In this document: positions 9,479-56,021 of the stretch, piece by piece
How the letters are laid out: each line of letters opens with the position of its first letter
Position numbering within the stretch: position 1 is the first letter of the stretch
Source: Candidatus Peribacteria bacterium
Lineage (GTDB): Bacteria > Patescibacteriota > Gracilibacteria > Peribacterales > Peribacteraceae
Length of the DNA: 64,000 bases
Assembly: GCA_016866875.1 (NCBI GenBank)
Contig: VGKY01000005.1
Coordinates: forward strand, 1 to 64,000
Direction of reading: 5' to 3'
Translations under genes and position numbers: made by a program
The notes under the pieces: model-generated
Told to the model about the DNA's origin: nothing
What the model saw: only the letters and a program-made list of their open reading frames with translations
Database searches by the model: none

Positions 9479-9937
9479 CTAGCGCGTCGGGGTCTTAAGG
9501 ACATTGAGACGCTCCGCCTTTCGCACGATCAATCTCCTGCTTGGGCGGTTTGCCATGCGCTCAACGGGGCGAACAGAAGATGCTCGGTCGATGCCTTCGG
9601 AGACGCGGGGGAACACATCCCAGTCGTTGGTGCGTACAGCTCTGCGGTGCGCTGCTGTGAGCATACGACGCACTCTCCTATTTTGTGCTGCAAATACCGT
9701 AGGATTGAGAGGCTCAGACCAGAGATTCCTCCAGGAGCTATATTCCTGTGCCATGCGTTCCTGATAGCGCTTCTGCTCACCTGCAAAGGGGTACTGAGAA
9801 TCAGCAGACTGCGTCCACTCGAGGTCCGCACCGTGACGGATGATCGATGCCTCAGGTTCCATCGCTGGGGCAGAAACGGCGAATGCCGCTGGGGAGATCG
9901 TGAGAGCGAGGAGACTCGACGCAATGACCAGACGCAT
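9479..9937 (-). CDS. hypothetical secreted protein
   Basis: MRLVIASSLLALTISPAAFAVSA signal peptide; the longer ORF-track start would run into the tRNA-derived repeat. Confidence 0.6.
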   Translation of the reverse strand: MRLVIASSLLALTISPAAFAVSAPAMEPEASIIRHGADLEWTQSADSQYPFAGEQKRYQERMAQEYSSWRNLWSEPLNPTVFAAQNRRVRRMLTAAHRRAVRTNDWDVFPRVSEGIDRASSVRPVERMANRPSRRLIVRKAERLNVLKTPTR

Positions 9938-10011
9938 GGAGTTTTGGGGGAGGGTGGGGGCATAGCGTATCTCTCCCTGACAAATTGTAAAGTTCAATCG
10001 ACGGGTAATGG

Positions 10012-10172
10012 GGGAGCTGAAAGGAACCGACTTCGCTCTACGGGCTTCGCCGGGCAGGCTTAAACACTCGGCCTCCGCAATGCGAAAGGACGCTACGCGT
10101 CCTGGCGGCGATTTCTTTGATGATAGAGCGCTCGCATTCGCTATCAACGAATCGCTTGGTGGAGCTGAAGGA
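10012..10172 (-). repeat. tRNA-Ala-derived repeat, copy A (tRNA pieces interrupted by hairpins)
   Basis: Read on minus strand: acceptor 3' end TCCTTCAGCTCCACCA, spacer, hairpin GGACGCGTAGCGTCC, anticodon-to-T arm TTCGCATTGCGGAGGCCGAGTGTTTAAG, REP-like hairpin, then TTCCTTTCAGCTCCC. Confidence 0.8.
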
Positions 10173-10335
10173 GCAATTTCGGTTAATCGCTTTCCTTTCC
10201 ATCTCCAGTACTTGCTATCGTAATTTTCTAATACACGTAACCTTTTCTAATGTCGCTCATAGTACGTCCGCATATGATCAACTACGAATCATGGCACGTC
10301 ATCAACTTGAATCTTAAATATGAAACATGTCGTTC

Positions 10336-11667
10336 TTACGATTTTGACCAAACTTTTTCAAGCTCATCGAAATTTTTACGGAGTTCATCGAAAGGAACTG
10401 CAATGTTTATGCGGGCATAACCAGGCATCCCATGGATCCAATTTCCATTAACATCGTATGCATTCATTTCAATGCCCGCCTGTTCAAACAGACTTTGCAT
10501 GCGCAGTACGTCATTTTTGCTTTCAGCCAATCGAACGCAAATCACAGATGTTGCGTCTGGTACATGTGCCTGTAGCCCAACCCTCTTGAGAGCATCACAG
10601 GCATACTTAGCGTTCTGATTCAGGACAGTATTCAGTGCATCCATGTACTGCCCTCCATTTTCTTTCATGCAATCAATTGCTGTGATGGCCGCTTCATTTG
10701 AGGGCTTTTGTAGTTTGAGGCTAGTGCGGGTCTTTTCATCTGGAACTATTGCCACACTGCAGGGAAACGCCGACGTATTGAAAGCCTTGCCTGTGCCATA
10801 GACCATGGCTGCACTTTTTGCATATCCCTCTCGCTGAGCAATTGTGATCAGTGGAACATGAGACTGCTTGTTCTGTACCTGATCACTCCAGACTTCATCG
10901 GAAATTATTTTCACACCGTGGCGTTTGCAAATTGTCACAATTTGCTGGAGTTCAGTGGGAGAGAATACATACCCATTTGGATTATTTGGATGAGACAAGA
11001 GTAATGCTTTTACATCTCCTTTTTGCGCATCCATTTGGCGAATCATATCTTCAAATTTTGATACATCGAATTTCCATCCTTCATCATTCTCGATCATCGG
11101 AGTCGTGAACAAGGAGCCACATCTCATATGAAGGAATCGTGGATATGTAGGAGTGATAACACCGACGATTGCGTTACCCGAAGGATCGTAGGCATCCAGC
11201 AGTGACTGAATGGTGTCGCTCGCGCTTTCACACACAACAACGGAACTTGCAGGAATTTTATCAGGTGCAAACTCCATACCATGCCGCTCTTGCAGCCAAT
11301 GCTGAAAGGCTGAGCTCGTCGCACGTTCGGTACCTACTGATAGTCGATCTAGCTGCTCTCTCACGTTTCTCCCCCTTCCCGGTGGATCGTCAGCGATATA
11401 ATTGTAAAACCCGTCGGGACAGAAACTTCTCAGATGTATGTCTGCCGCAAATGGTGAAGGCATTAATCTATCGGCTGGAGCGGGCATGCATACGAATCCA
11501 TTATCATTTCTTTTTGCACCCACAAGGGTATTGAAGTACCGATGATTGTACCGAGCAGGATTTTCTGACTCAGCAGAATTGATTACTGGCTCTGTTTGCA
11601 AGAGAGCATCACCAGAATTTTCTGGAGTGTCTGTTTCCCCGATCGGCTTCTGCTCGTTGAGCATCAT
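10336..11667 (-). CDS. PLP-dependent aminotransferase class I/II (MalY/PatB-like)
   Basis: LLSHPNNPNGYVFSPTEL, IISDEVWSD, MVYGTGKAFNTSAFPCSVAIVPD (Schiff-base Lys region). Visibly more AT-rich than flanks. Confidence 0.8.
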   Translation of the reverse strand: MMLNEQKPIGETDTPENSGDALLQTEPVINSAESENPARYNHRYFNTLVGAKRNDNGFVCMPAPADRLMPSPFAADIHLRSFCPDGFYNYIADDPPGRGRNVREQLDRLSVGTERATSSAFQHWLQERHGMEFAPDKIPASSVVVCESASDTIQSLLDAYDPSGNAIVGVITPTYPRFLHMRCGSLFTTPMIENDEGWKFDVSKFEDMIRQMDAQKGDVKALLLSHPNNPNGYVFSPTELQQIVTICKRHGVKIISDEVWSDQVQNKQSHVPLITIAQREGYAKSAAMVYGTGKAFNTSAFPCSVAIVPDEKTRTSLKLQKPSNEAAITAIDCMKENGGQYMDALNTVLNQNAKYACDALKRVGLQAHVPDATSVICVRLAESKNDVLRMQSLFEQAGIEMNAYDVNGNWIHGMPGYARINIAVPFDELRKNFDELEKVWSKS

Positions 11668-11717
11668 AATATTATACCATATTAAGTCTCATTATGCTTG
11701 CGGCGGCTAATCGACCT

Positions 11718-11854
11718 AAAGGGACCCAACTTCGCCCTGGGCTACTCCGGGCAGGCTTAAACCCTCGGCCTCCGCAATGCGAAGGGACGCTTCGCGTCCT
11801 GGCGGCGATTTTTTGATGATAGAGCGCTCGCATTCGCTTCTTCCATTTGAGATT
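11718..11854 (-). repeat. tRNA-Ala-derived repeat, copy B
   Basis: 82 bp core (11756-11837) near-identical to copy A (about 4 differences); contains 28 nt identical to the anticodon-to-T arm of the intact tRNA-Ala next to it. Confidence 0.8.
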
Positions 11855-11930
11855 TGGTGGAGCTGAAGGGACTTAAACCCTCGGCCTCCGCAATGCGAAT
11901 GCGGCGCTCTATCAGCTGAGCTACAGCCCC
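11855..11930 (-). tRNA. tRNA-Ala (anticodon CGC), CCA encoded
   Basis: GGGGCTG...CAGCTCC acceptor with G3:U70, anticodon stem CCGCA/TGCGG, loop TTCGCAT (CGC), T-stem GAGGG/CCCTT, 3' ACCA. Confidence 0.9.
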
Positions 11931-12011
11931 ACGCTGTAAATATAGAGAATGAATGACAGGGGATCGAGCGCAACCTTTTCATTTTGCGCCTCGTGCAAGC
12001 ACTCGGCGGCC

Positions 12012-12031
12012 AGCTGAGCTACAGCCCCACT
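12012..12031 (-). pseudogene. tRNA-Ala 5' remnant
   Basis: TGGGGCTGTAGCTCAGCTGG on the minus strand matches the tRNA-Ala 5' end; what follows does not fold as a tRNA. Confidence 0.65.
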
Positions 12032-12095
12032 TTGTCATTATCAATAGTTCATTTTTAATTTTCAATGCGATTGCTCTGTAATAGAATAGATGCGT

Positions 12096-12171
12096 GGCCC
12101 GGTAGCTCAGTTGGTAGAGCACTCGCCTGAAGAGCGAGGTGTCACCAGTTCGATCCTGGTCTGGGCCACCA
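12096..12171 (+). tRNA. tRNA-Phe (anticodon GAA), CCA encoded
   Basis: Acceptor GGCCCGG/CTGGGCC, loop CTGAAGA, T-loop TTCGATC, 3' ACCA. Confidence 0.95.
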
Positions 12172-20612: not shown

Positions 20613-20835
20613 GAATAGTGAAATGGTAAGGATCAAGCGTGACGATAGAACTCTAGCGAAGTTGCAAACTGCCTGCCCGCCGAAGTCCGCATCAGGCGGA
20701 CGAAGGTGGGAGCTACCGGCCCGAGGAGAGAAGAGAAAGGATCAAGGCTGACAATAGAACTGTAGCGAAGTTGCAAACTGCCTGCCCGCCGAAGTTTTCC
20801 TGAACGAAGGCGGGAGCTACAGGCCCACGAAGGAA
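20613..20835 (-). repeat. tandem copies of tRNA-Ile leader plus 5' 13 nt, interrupted by REP-like hairpins
   Basis: GGGCCGGTAGCTC recurs at about 20708-20723 and as GGGCCTGTAGCTC near 20812-20826; shared block AGTTTGCAACTTCGCTAsAGTTCTATyGTCAssCTTGATCCTT. Confidence 0.8.
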
Positions 20836-54420: not shown

Positions 54421-54991
54421 ACTCCCCCTTCATCATCTCTGGAAATACCGCGAGAAGGAATCCTGCACTCGATTCTGATGATCCGGAACAAGAAGGTCCT
54501 GCTCGACAGTGATCTTGCTCAACTCTACAAAGTGCCGACATCGCGCTTAAACGAACAGGTGAAGCGCAACATGCACCGCTTTCCCATAGATTTTATGTTC
54601 AGGCCTACGCAAGAGGAATTCGAGGATTTGCTATCGCATAATGCGATATCAAAGAAGCGTGGCGGACGACGAAAGCTACCATACGTTTTTTACGGAGCAG
54701 GGGGTTGCCATGCTTTCCAGTATCCTGCGGAGCTTCCGGGCCGTTCAGGTAAACATTGCCATCATGCGTACATTTGTTGAGCATCGACGCATCATTGCCA
54801 CACGCAAAGACCTCGTGCACGAACCTGAAGAGATGGAACGAAGGTGCGATGAACATTTCCGAACTATATTCGACGTCATCCGGAGCCTTGTGTCCCATCC
54901 AACACCTCGTGCAAAGAATCGCATAGGATTGAAGGTACCGAAAAATCCGTGGTGTGCTACTTGCCGTGAAACTTCCGGTGTACGTCTTTGA
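54421..54991 (+). pseudogene. ORF6N-domain protein, frameshifted
   Basis: MTPPSSSLEIPREGILHSILMIRNKKVLLDSDLAQLYKVPTSRLNEQVKRNMHRFPIDFMFRPTQEEF...GGRRKLPYVF in frame 1, continued TEQGVAMLSSILRSFRAVQVNIAIMRTFVEHR in frame 2 after a T6 run at 54686-54691. Confidence 0.8.
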
Positions 54992-55886
54992 GCTGCGGAT
55001 TGGTGACGTGCGTATAGATCTGCGTCGTTCCGAGATCCTTATGGCCGAGCATTTCTTGAACCGAGCGCAGATCCGCACCATTGCGGAGTAAATCTGTCGC
55101 AAAGGAATGCCGGAGGGTGTGGGGCGAGGGATTGCTAACTACGCCAGCCTTGAGCGCGTACTTCTTCACGATGTTCCAGATGGAAACGCGGGAGAGGCGG
55201 AACTCCTCCCCTGGAGGCATCGCCGTTCCTGCACGCTCCAGAGCCCGGATGAACAGGGGAGTGAGGTGATCCACCCGCGTATCGAGGTACGCTTTGAGCG
55301 CCTCCACTGCCCTATCGGAGAGGAAAACGACCCGGATCTTCCCCCGCTTTCCGCGGACGGAAATCTCGCGCGTATCGAAATTGAGGTCTCGGCAGTTGAG
55401 GGACCGAAGCTCCGCGAGGCGCAGCCCAGTGGAGAAGAAGGTCTGGAGGATCGCAAGGTCGCGCTTTCCCTCCCGCGTAGAGGTATCCGGCGCACTGAGC
55501 AAACGCTCCAGTTCCTCGTGGAAGAGCACCTTCACCTTGCGTTGATCCTCCTTGAAGCGCGATACGCGATCAGGAGGATAGACGTCTTGTTCCTCCTCCT
55601 GGATGAGATACCGGAGGAAGGCGCGGAGGATCGTCAGATGGTGATTCTTCGTCCGGATGGTGAATTCCCGGCCCTGCCTGGTGCGATAGGCGTGCAGTGC
55701 GGACTTATAGATGCGTACGGACTGCTTATCCACCTGGGACGCGTCATCGATGTTCATGAGGGAGGGAAGCAGCGTCAGCGACTGCCGATAGGCATCAACC
55801 GTCAGCGGCGACTTGTTTTCCTCAGCTCGCAGGTACTCTAGGTACCGATGGATTGCCTGCGATAATGGAGTAGGAGGTGAAGTCAT
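54957..55886 (-). CDS. tyrosine recombinase XerC/XerD
   Basis: FFSTGLRLAELRSLNCRDL, SPHTLRHSFATDLLRNGADLRSVQEMLGHKDLGTTQIYTHV. Confidence 0.93.
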   Translation of the reverse strand: MTSPPTPLSQAIHRYLEYLRAEENKSPLTVDAYRQSLTLLPSLMNIDDASQVDKQSVRIYKSALHAYRTRQGREFTIRTKNHHLTILRAFLRYLIQEEEQDVYPPDRVSRFKEDQRKVKVLFHEELERLLSAPDTSTREGKRDLAILQTFFSTGLRLAELRSLNCRDLNFDTREISVRGKRGKIRVVFLSDRAVEALKAYLDTRVDHLTPLFIRALERAGTAMPPGEEFRLSRVSIWNIVKKYALKAGVVSNPSPHTLRHSFATDLLRNGADLRSVQEMLGHKDLGTTQIYTHVTNPQLKDVHRKFHGK

Positions 55887-56021
55887 GCGTGTAACGTGTG
55901 CAGGAATCTTGGCTTCCAGAGTGGGGAAGTGGTGTTTTCCACACTCTCTCCTACTTAACATAATGCATTTTATGCTAACTATTCAATTGACAATGCAACG
56001 CAGGTGATCCAATCACACTCT

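Follow-up and report, generated by a model that had tools for sequence, protein, structure and literature searches.

How a tRNA gene comes to stand among broken copies of itself, with a single foreign gene lodged in one of them, is the question raised by the tRNA-Ala(CGC) locus described here. The locus lies in the window, the 64,000-nt stretch of DNA analyzed in this study, which represents contig C5 of a 1.12 Mb, 36-contig Peribacteria-type genome (Patescibacteria; hereafter G000). Candidatus Peribacteria and Peregrinibacteria metagenome genomes are among its relatives, and the comparison set comprised its own family (74 genomes in 40 genera) and the class (353 genomes). An earlier note on this DNA likened the locus to an att-like duplication, or repeated insertion, at a tRNA gene with a one-gene cargo. 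That att-site reading is replaced here by the late insertion of a gene into a tandem of tRNA-derived repeats.

Tandem repeats and an inserted gene at tRNA-Ala(CGC)

Read in the direction of the tRNA, the locus consists of an upstream unit (U), the tRNA-Ala(CGC) gene, and two downstream repeats, R_B and R_A. Its features are as follows.

12096..12171, plus strand: tRNA-Phe(GAA), the divergent neighbor, used as a locus marker in relatives
12037..12065, minus strand: promoter-like TTGAAA-17-GATAAT directly 5' of the U unit (consensus match only, 10/12, the best in the region)
11959..12028, minus strand: U unit of tRNA-Ala(CGC) (sequence; orthologues in G003 and G004; profile match, E 3.4e-17)
12010-12028: U head, equal to tRNA nt 1-19
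11987-12008: U hairpin HP1, CGCC-GA-GTGC..GCAC-GA-GGCG
about 11971-11986: U A-rich linker
about 11961-11971: U tail GCGCTCGATCC, antisense to the D-stem of its own tRNA
11855..11930, minus strand: intact tRNA-Ala(CGC) (ARAGORN; Rfam RF00005, 64.8 bits)
11719..11854, minus strand: R_B, the first R unit, broken in the acceptor sequence (sequence, repeat comparison, junction analysis)
11818-11838: R_B inverted tRNA nt 20-36, then an A-rich linker
11785-11799: R_B hairpin GGACGC-TTC-GCGTCC
11756-11783: R_B tRNA 3' half from the anticodon loop
about 11725-11755: R_B palindromic T-loop insert
10172..11718, minus strand: inserted cargo, 1547 bp, with AAGG at both flanks (10168-10171, 11719-11722; junction analysis)
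10336..11667, minus strand: PLP-dependent fold-type I enzyme of 443 aa, PatB/MalY-like C-S lyase or aminotransferase
10156..10171, minus strand: stranded 3' end of R_B beyond the cargo, the tRNA acceptor end CCTTCAGCTCCACCAA; the same 16 nt at 11854-11869
10009..10155, minus strand: R_A, the second R unit (sequence, repeat comparison, junction analysis)
10122-10142: R_A inverted tRNA nt 20-36
10110-10121: R_A A-rich linker
10088-10102: R_A hairpin GGACGC-TAC-GCGTCC
10059-10086: R_A tRNA 3' half
about 10023-10058: R_A T-loop palindrome
10009-10025: R_A acceptor remnant
9479..9940, minus strand: conserved hypothetical ORF, whose homolog (43% identity over 129 aa) stands directly 3' of tRNA-Ala at the empty site of G003

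Much of what the earlier note described is borne out. Two direct repeats are present where it placed them, matching over 76 nt at 92% and a further 30 nt at 97%, and a search against the rest of the genome, which it had called for, returned these two copies and no third. Each holds the 28-nt anticodon-loop-to-T-loop segment of tRNA-Ala (10059-10086, 11756-11783) and the hairpin GGACGC..GCGTCC; copy A does return to acceptor sequence after its hairpin, and the intact tRNA-Ala(CGC) at 11855-11930 (minus strand) adjoins copy B, which is R_B. The earlier note missed a further part of both repeats, 19 nt that repeat tRNA nt 20-36 in inverted orientation with one base added (10122-10142, 11818-11838). 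In the tRNA direction, R thus runs from the inverted nt 20-36 through an A-rich linker and the hairpin to the tRNA 3' half, which starts exactly at the anticodon loop TTCGCAT and has a palindrome inserted in its T-loop. R_B and R_A form two tandem units of about 148 bp (period 148) 3' of the tRNA.

The cargo interrupts R_B inside the acceptor sequence, 17 nt before the end of the repeat: copy B ends at GGGTCCCTT, and the 16-nt tRNA 3' end CCTTCAGCTCCACCAA sits in front of copy A. Joining the flanks without the cargo, which carry the 4-bp AAGG on both sides, restores TCCCTTCAGCTCCACCA; the joined flanks read GGGTCCCTTCAGCTCCACCAA, the exact end of the intact tRNA-Ala(CGC), with a 4-bp overlap. 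The 16-nt piece at 10156-10171 thus supplies the end that R_B lacks, which places the cargo within R_B rather than between a pair of att sites; removing the cargo in silico leaves a tandem of two ~148-bp units. The proposal that the repeats came to bracket the aminotransferase through its own insertion therefore falls, since the 1,547-bp fragment broke a pre-existing R_B. The AAGG at the cargo ends represents either a 4-bp duplication or microhomology, and no terminal inverted or direct repeats of at least 14 nt occur at those ends. As the earlier note stated, there is no integrase within 10012-12031; given this, and the lack of inverted repeats at the ends, the cargo seems to have entered by illegitimate or short-duplication insertion of an ordinary kind. 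We infer that the cargo is a later, ordinary insertion and that the repeats are not its attachment sites.

The cargo is AT-rich, as the earlier note stated of its gene. Its GC content is 0.458, against 0.568 ± 0.024 (z −4.6), and the GC3 of its gene is 0.418, against 0.636 ± 0.063 (z −3.5), the lowest GC and GC3 of 39 ORFs; TATAAT lies immediately 5' of the ATG. The translation carries the motifs PNNPNG, SDEVW, and GTGKAFN and passes Pfam PF00155 (aminotransferase class I/II) at 75.4 bits against a gathering score of 19.7 (E 6e-21), with PDB matches to PatB (6qp3, 1e-23) and MalY (1d2f, 7e-22). Its score against TIGR04350 (PatB/MalY C-S lyase; 148.8 bits, E 2e-43) misses the curated cut-off of 340 bits, so that the enzyme, as judged from sequence, likely has the related fold and chemistry of PatB/MalY C-S lyases but is by this cut-off no member of that family. 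Searches of genome contigs and IMG/VR found no relatives of the protein, and phage records gave at best 24-26% identity. Among the other relatives searched, the gene is absent apart from one homolog at 30% identity, the only one in the family, within a 545-aa open frame of G011 (L035, G011:C44:49910-50929). The acquisition of the cargo is itself ordinary horizontal gene transfer.

The sister genome G003 offers the empty site that an att interpretation expects, with neither R nor cargo: tRNA-Ala is followed at once by the homolog of the ORF at 9479..9940. In G216, from another genus, an R-R tandem of 115-bp units stands at the same tRNA, free of the T-loop palindrome and of adjoining cargo; this array touches an N-gap (L088, 3902-4001, inside tRNA-Ala), where more R units or cargo may hide. 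R is known from G000 and G216 only; allowing up to two mismatches, its pattern also matched in five other family genomes, and the one match inspected (G006) was apparently coding sequence. On the upstream side, the earlier note had recorded a 5' tRNA remnant at 12012. A tRNA piece is indeed there, but it forms part of the longer unit 11959-12028, which has orthologues upstream of tRNA-Ala in G003 and G004; since the piece occupies the same place in these sisters without the insertion, it is not a product of insertion.

These data bear directly on the att interpretation, under which a tyrosine recombinase crossing over in the tRNA-Ala anticodon loop made the repeats as attL and attR and left the aminotransferase as element residue. 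Integrative elements do leave tRNA gene fragments (attR) behind (PMC9897764), and the locus resembles such scars in having partial tRNA copies next to an intact tRNA. The identity between R and the tRNA starts at the anticodon loop, where crossover classically occurs; the single cargo gene is foreign, R is patchily distributed, and the genome encodes Xer-type recombinases. However, the cargo lies within R_B, its limits are not those of attL and attR, R includes part of the tRNA in inverted orientation and has an insert within its T-loop, and cargo-free R tandems exist, as in G216. Unlike attR fragments, the units treated below include copies of the tRNA 5' end that lie upstream, carry hairpins together with an A-rich linker and a D-arm piece in inverted orientation, and recur without any element and in tandem. 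No R-specific match was found on viral contigs in IMG/VR, and the nearest PF00589 match is the Xer-like gene at 54957-55961. We therefore consider an att scar improbable. What survives of the original proposal is a lineage-specific, AT-rich cargo in duplicated tRNA-derived sequence on the 3' side of the tRNA; the repeats as att sites made by its integration do not survive. As to that Xer-like gene, its product is an XerC/XerD-like tyrosine recombinase scoring below the XerD equivalog cut-off, and two more PF00589 genes lie elsewhere in the genome.

The order tRNA-R-gene-R, with the gene in one orientation, would also suit an integron-like array in which tRNA-Ala serves as attI, R as an attC-like site, and the aminotransferase as a cassette. 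Like attC arrays, the locus has hairpin repeats flanking one gene beside a fixed site; R folds into a multi-hairpin, and the array in G216 is empty. Yet the junction falls in the acceptor sequence of R_B and not at the R core, the repeats are tRNA-derived, a single cargo is known, and no integron integrase lies near, the window recombinase scoring highest as XerC/D, with integron models below cut-off. We regard such an array as very improbable. Misassembly of a repetitive region is hardly credible: the sequence comes from a metagenome assembly and the N-gap of the G216 contig falls at the same repeat, but the junctions are unique and restore the tRNA end, R is common to two genera, and dozens of independent genomes have U units in the same position.

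U units upstream of tRNA genes

The U unit of tRNA-Ala(CGC) belongs to a widespread group, with 93 U units located upstream of 29 tRNA types. Each opens with nt 1 to about 19 of the tRNA that follows; next come a hairpin and an A-rich linker, and a short tail closes the unit some 40 nt ahead of the tRNA. Inspection of the 46 tRNAs of G000 revealed U-like units before many of them (Lys, Thr, Met, Arg, Pro, Ala(TGC), Val, Ile, and others). A match of the upstream region to the head of its own tRNA with a score of at least 12 occurred in 9 of these 46 regions, as compared with 1.0% for the heads of other tRNAs; in two closed relatives the corresponding counts were 4/43 (G032) and 5/47 (G034), against about 1%. 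Identity of the head could, however, reflect recent duplication or gene conversion instead of function. A sequence profile built from 19 U units matched 49 of the 74 family genomes and, outside the family, only two among the 353 of the class. At 26 of 30 loci fetched, an intact same-strand tRNA lay within ~50 nt of the end of U, usually at 28-37 nt; at the remaining loci a second U intervened (G200), the contig ended first, or the tRNA lay further off. Tandem U-U-tRNA arrays with a period of about 93-109 and near-identical spacers occur in several genera. In three such arrays (L248, L249, L252; Arg, Lys, and Ala), the spacers are near-identical and the leftmost copy in L248 and L252 is headless, starting at the linker or tail. 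Detectable U units accompany about 10-25% of tRNAs per genome; as most tRNAs lack one, the element is dispensable for a given tRNA.

Elsewhere in the window, a U-type unit with a palindromic insert precedes tRNA-Ile(TAT) at 20613-20722, its head GGGCCGGTAGCTC being followed by CCACC..GGCGGGCAGG, and the tail part GCGCTCTAGCCC of another precedes tRNA-Pro(TGG) at positions 1-80, with its head beyond the contig start. A scan of 84,980 species for the exact U head-core junction returned two Peribacteria/Peregrinibacteria matches and two in proteobacteria; the latter have no tRNA nearby and were taken as chance. The predicted start of the promoter-like TTGAAA-17-GATAAT site coincides with the U head, and promoter scores across the group are about the same for U heads and tRNAs, with no separation.

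The tail follows the sequence of the tRNA it precedes. Opposite tRNA nt 26, the tail carries the base complementary to its own tRNA in 63 of 76 units (83%), as compared with 36.5 (SD 3.7, maximum 51 in 5000 trials) when tails are shuffled among tRNAs. Antisense runs average 5.66 against the own tRNA, 4.69 (SD 0.09) when permuted, and 3.92 against tRNAs that have no U. As related sequences enter these tests as if they were independent, the numbers overstate independence, but changes within a tRNA type are unaffected by this. Within tRNA-Phe, nt 26 and the tail change together, from A/T in L022 to G/C in L032, and likewise within tRNA-Trp, from A/T in L246 to G/C in L238; a Pro tRNA with GAGT in place of GAGC has the tail ACTC in place of GCTC. 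Since the tail tracks its own tRNA at nt 26, and in one case at nt 25, it is antisense, and the same behavior ruled out the tail as a second 5' strand of the D-stem.

Secondary palindromes are a further feature of these copies. In several U copies of G000 and other genomes, palindromes of the CCTGCC..GGCAGG type sit at one and the same place in the D-arm, as GTAGC|CCTGCC..GGCAGG|TCAG or TAGCTC|CCACC..GGGCAGG|CAG; the T-loops of R_A, R_B, and the 3' tRNA remnants (Arg, Glu, and Lys) of G032 contain them too. Among these remnants are L082, downstream of tRNA-Arg(CCT) of G032, which shares its T-loop insert with R_A in the window, and L186, downstream of tRNA-Glu. The palindromes look like later insertions for which tRNA copies served as landing sites, and the palindrome-free R of G216 suggests that insertion postdates the R unit.

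REP sequences, MITEs, and Rickettsia palindromic elements are short palindromes inserted in RNA genes, and the secondary inserts here are of that kind. One could suppose that D-arm and T-loop sequences in tRNA copies are targets of REP/MITE-like mobile elements, which would have landed in the copies now broken, beside a retained intact gene. The recurrence of the palindromes at these positions and the presence of two Y1-transposase genes in G000 speak for this account. Many U units and all V units (described below) nevertheless lack such palindromes, G032 and G034 have no Y1 match despite their U units or 3' remnants, and the antisense tail and A-rich linker are left unexplained. U, V, and R moreover match the neighboring tRNA and its D-arm, and are not dispersed copies of one sequence. 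We consider this account unlikely as a full explanation.

A single class of chimeric repeats and its possible origin

Three further units, termed V, lie downstream of tRNAs (G198 Met, G034 Thr, and G034 Met) and combine both halves of the tRNA: a head, a hairpin, an A-rich linker, a second hairpin, and the 3' half as far as CCA. Both G034 copies have a partly decayed head. The G198 unit has a perfect acceptor stem and T-arm, and in its predicted fold (z −2.6) two hairpins replace the D and anticodon region. R corresponds to the 3' part of a V-type unit. U, R, and V are thus shown to be one class of tRNA-derived chimeric repeats of Peribacteria. In each, a hairpin and an A-rich linker accompany a sense fragment of the adjacent tRNA, which is the 5' end in U, the 3' half in R, and both in V, as well as a segment antisense to the D-arm/anticodon side of that tRNA. 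In another family (G049, L059), a copy of tRNA-Lys from D-loop to CCA lies ~160 nt past tRNA-Lys, with its anticodon arm swapped for the perfect hairpin CTCCGC-TTTA-GCGGAG.

RNAalifold detected no consensus structure in the (poor) U-unit alignment, and permutation and shuffling tests were used for this reason. The hairpin regions of 39 units on average fold better than shuffled sequence (mean z −1.27 ± 0.16) with many different stem sequences; single U units fold mostly close to shuffled. When U and tRNA are folded together, the acceptor 3' strand pairs with the U head at a mean probability of 0.80, against 0.14 with its own head, in a thermodynamic model that leaves out kinetics and processing, and the tail pairs with the D-arm in some predicted folds.

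The explanation that we favor, at a probability of about 0.5 for the whole, joins this class of repeats to cis action on the tRNA transcript, an origin by local duplication, and the late cargo insertion. Flanking units would act in cis on the tRNA transcript, with the antisense segment pairing with the D-arm and the sense fragment providing a second acceptor strand. Two folds would then be open to a U+tRNA or tRNA+R transcript, that of the normal tRNA and that of a V-like tRNA-like RNA with acceptor and T-arm intact and hairpins in place of the D/anticodon region; dedicated V copies would be fixed in the second fold. The units may have originated by local duplication with inversion at a tRNA gene, followed by tandem expansion and homogenization by recombination. 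More tentatively, U upstream and V and R downstream may be lineage-specific, cis-acting tRNA-mimic elements through which one tRNA gene yields a tRNA or a longer tRNA-like RNA, the element capturing the tRNA's own 5' or 3' half by pairing with the D-arm and acceptor.

The main rival is a mutational origin devoid of function, in which template switching at replicated tRNA genes leaves inverted D-arm pieces and perfect hairpins, tandem duplication spreads the products, and concerted evolution keeps their match to the tRNA. It is a serious possibility, if not the one we prefer. Template switching accounts very simply for the inverted pieces and hairpins of R, which has precisely the arrangement that one such event would leave (the tRNA through to its end, then nt 36-20 inverted, then nt 32-76 again), and it agrees with the tandem duplications with near-identical spacers, with perfect hairpins of varying sequence, and with the lack of a unit at most tRNAs. 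It fits less readily the recurrence, for 29 tRNA types in 49 genomes, of one order of head, hairpin, A-rich linker, and tail, with the tail near −40, or the tracking of the own tRNA's nt 26 by the tail in 83% of units. Near-absence outside the family would also be odd for a general mutational process.

Relation to known RNAs and biological meaning

Split and circularly permuted tRNA genes encode their halves apart, with extra pairing segments (PMC3978253, PMC4390854), and the present units resemble them in both respects. Here, by contrast, an intact tRNA is always present and the halves are not permuted; since U and V lack about nt 20-30, their halves could not be joined into a functional tRNA. 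Among RNAs that read or mimic tRNA are T-box leaders and the tRNA-like domain of tmRNA. V keeps the acceptor and T-arm as tmRNA does, but U, V, and R have no specifier or anticodon pairing, T-box motifs, or reading frame. In a search of Rfam 15 with the window U, R_A/R_B, the G216 R, and the U units of L067, L069, L077, and L078, only tRNAs reached the gathering score, all other hits being weak and attributable to chance; a resemblance of the R hairpin to a CRISPR repeat at a relaxed E-value was rejected as weak (E 0.015). Reverse-transcribed tRNA copies were rejected likewise, PF00078 being absent from G000, G032, and G034, all of which have units. As full explanations, integron cassettes, box C/D guides, T-boxes, boxA/nut-like tails, terminators, REP sequences, and reverse-transcribed copies are disfavored by the junction, the Rfam results, the reverse transcriptase search, and the specificity for the own tRNA. 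Literature searches for such tRNA-flanking elements found no description. The U/V/R class is real, recurrent, and undescribed in the sources searched.

In practical terms, "tRNA remnants" are not always att scars, and island callers that rely on partial tRNAs would mis-call loci of this kind. Few parts of a genome are as constrained as its tRNA genes. Flanking elements that, in 49 of the 74 genomes of one family, copy the end of their own tRNA and keep an antisense match to its D-stem point either to an unknown tRNA-directed mutational process or to an unknown layer of tRNA regulation, the latter in tiny, streamlined, episymbiont-like, uncultured bacteria. If the mimic reading is true, these elements would represent a new control of tRNA maturation or a source of tRNA-like regulatory RNAs.
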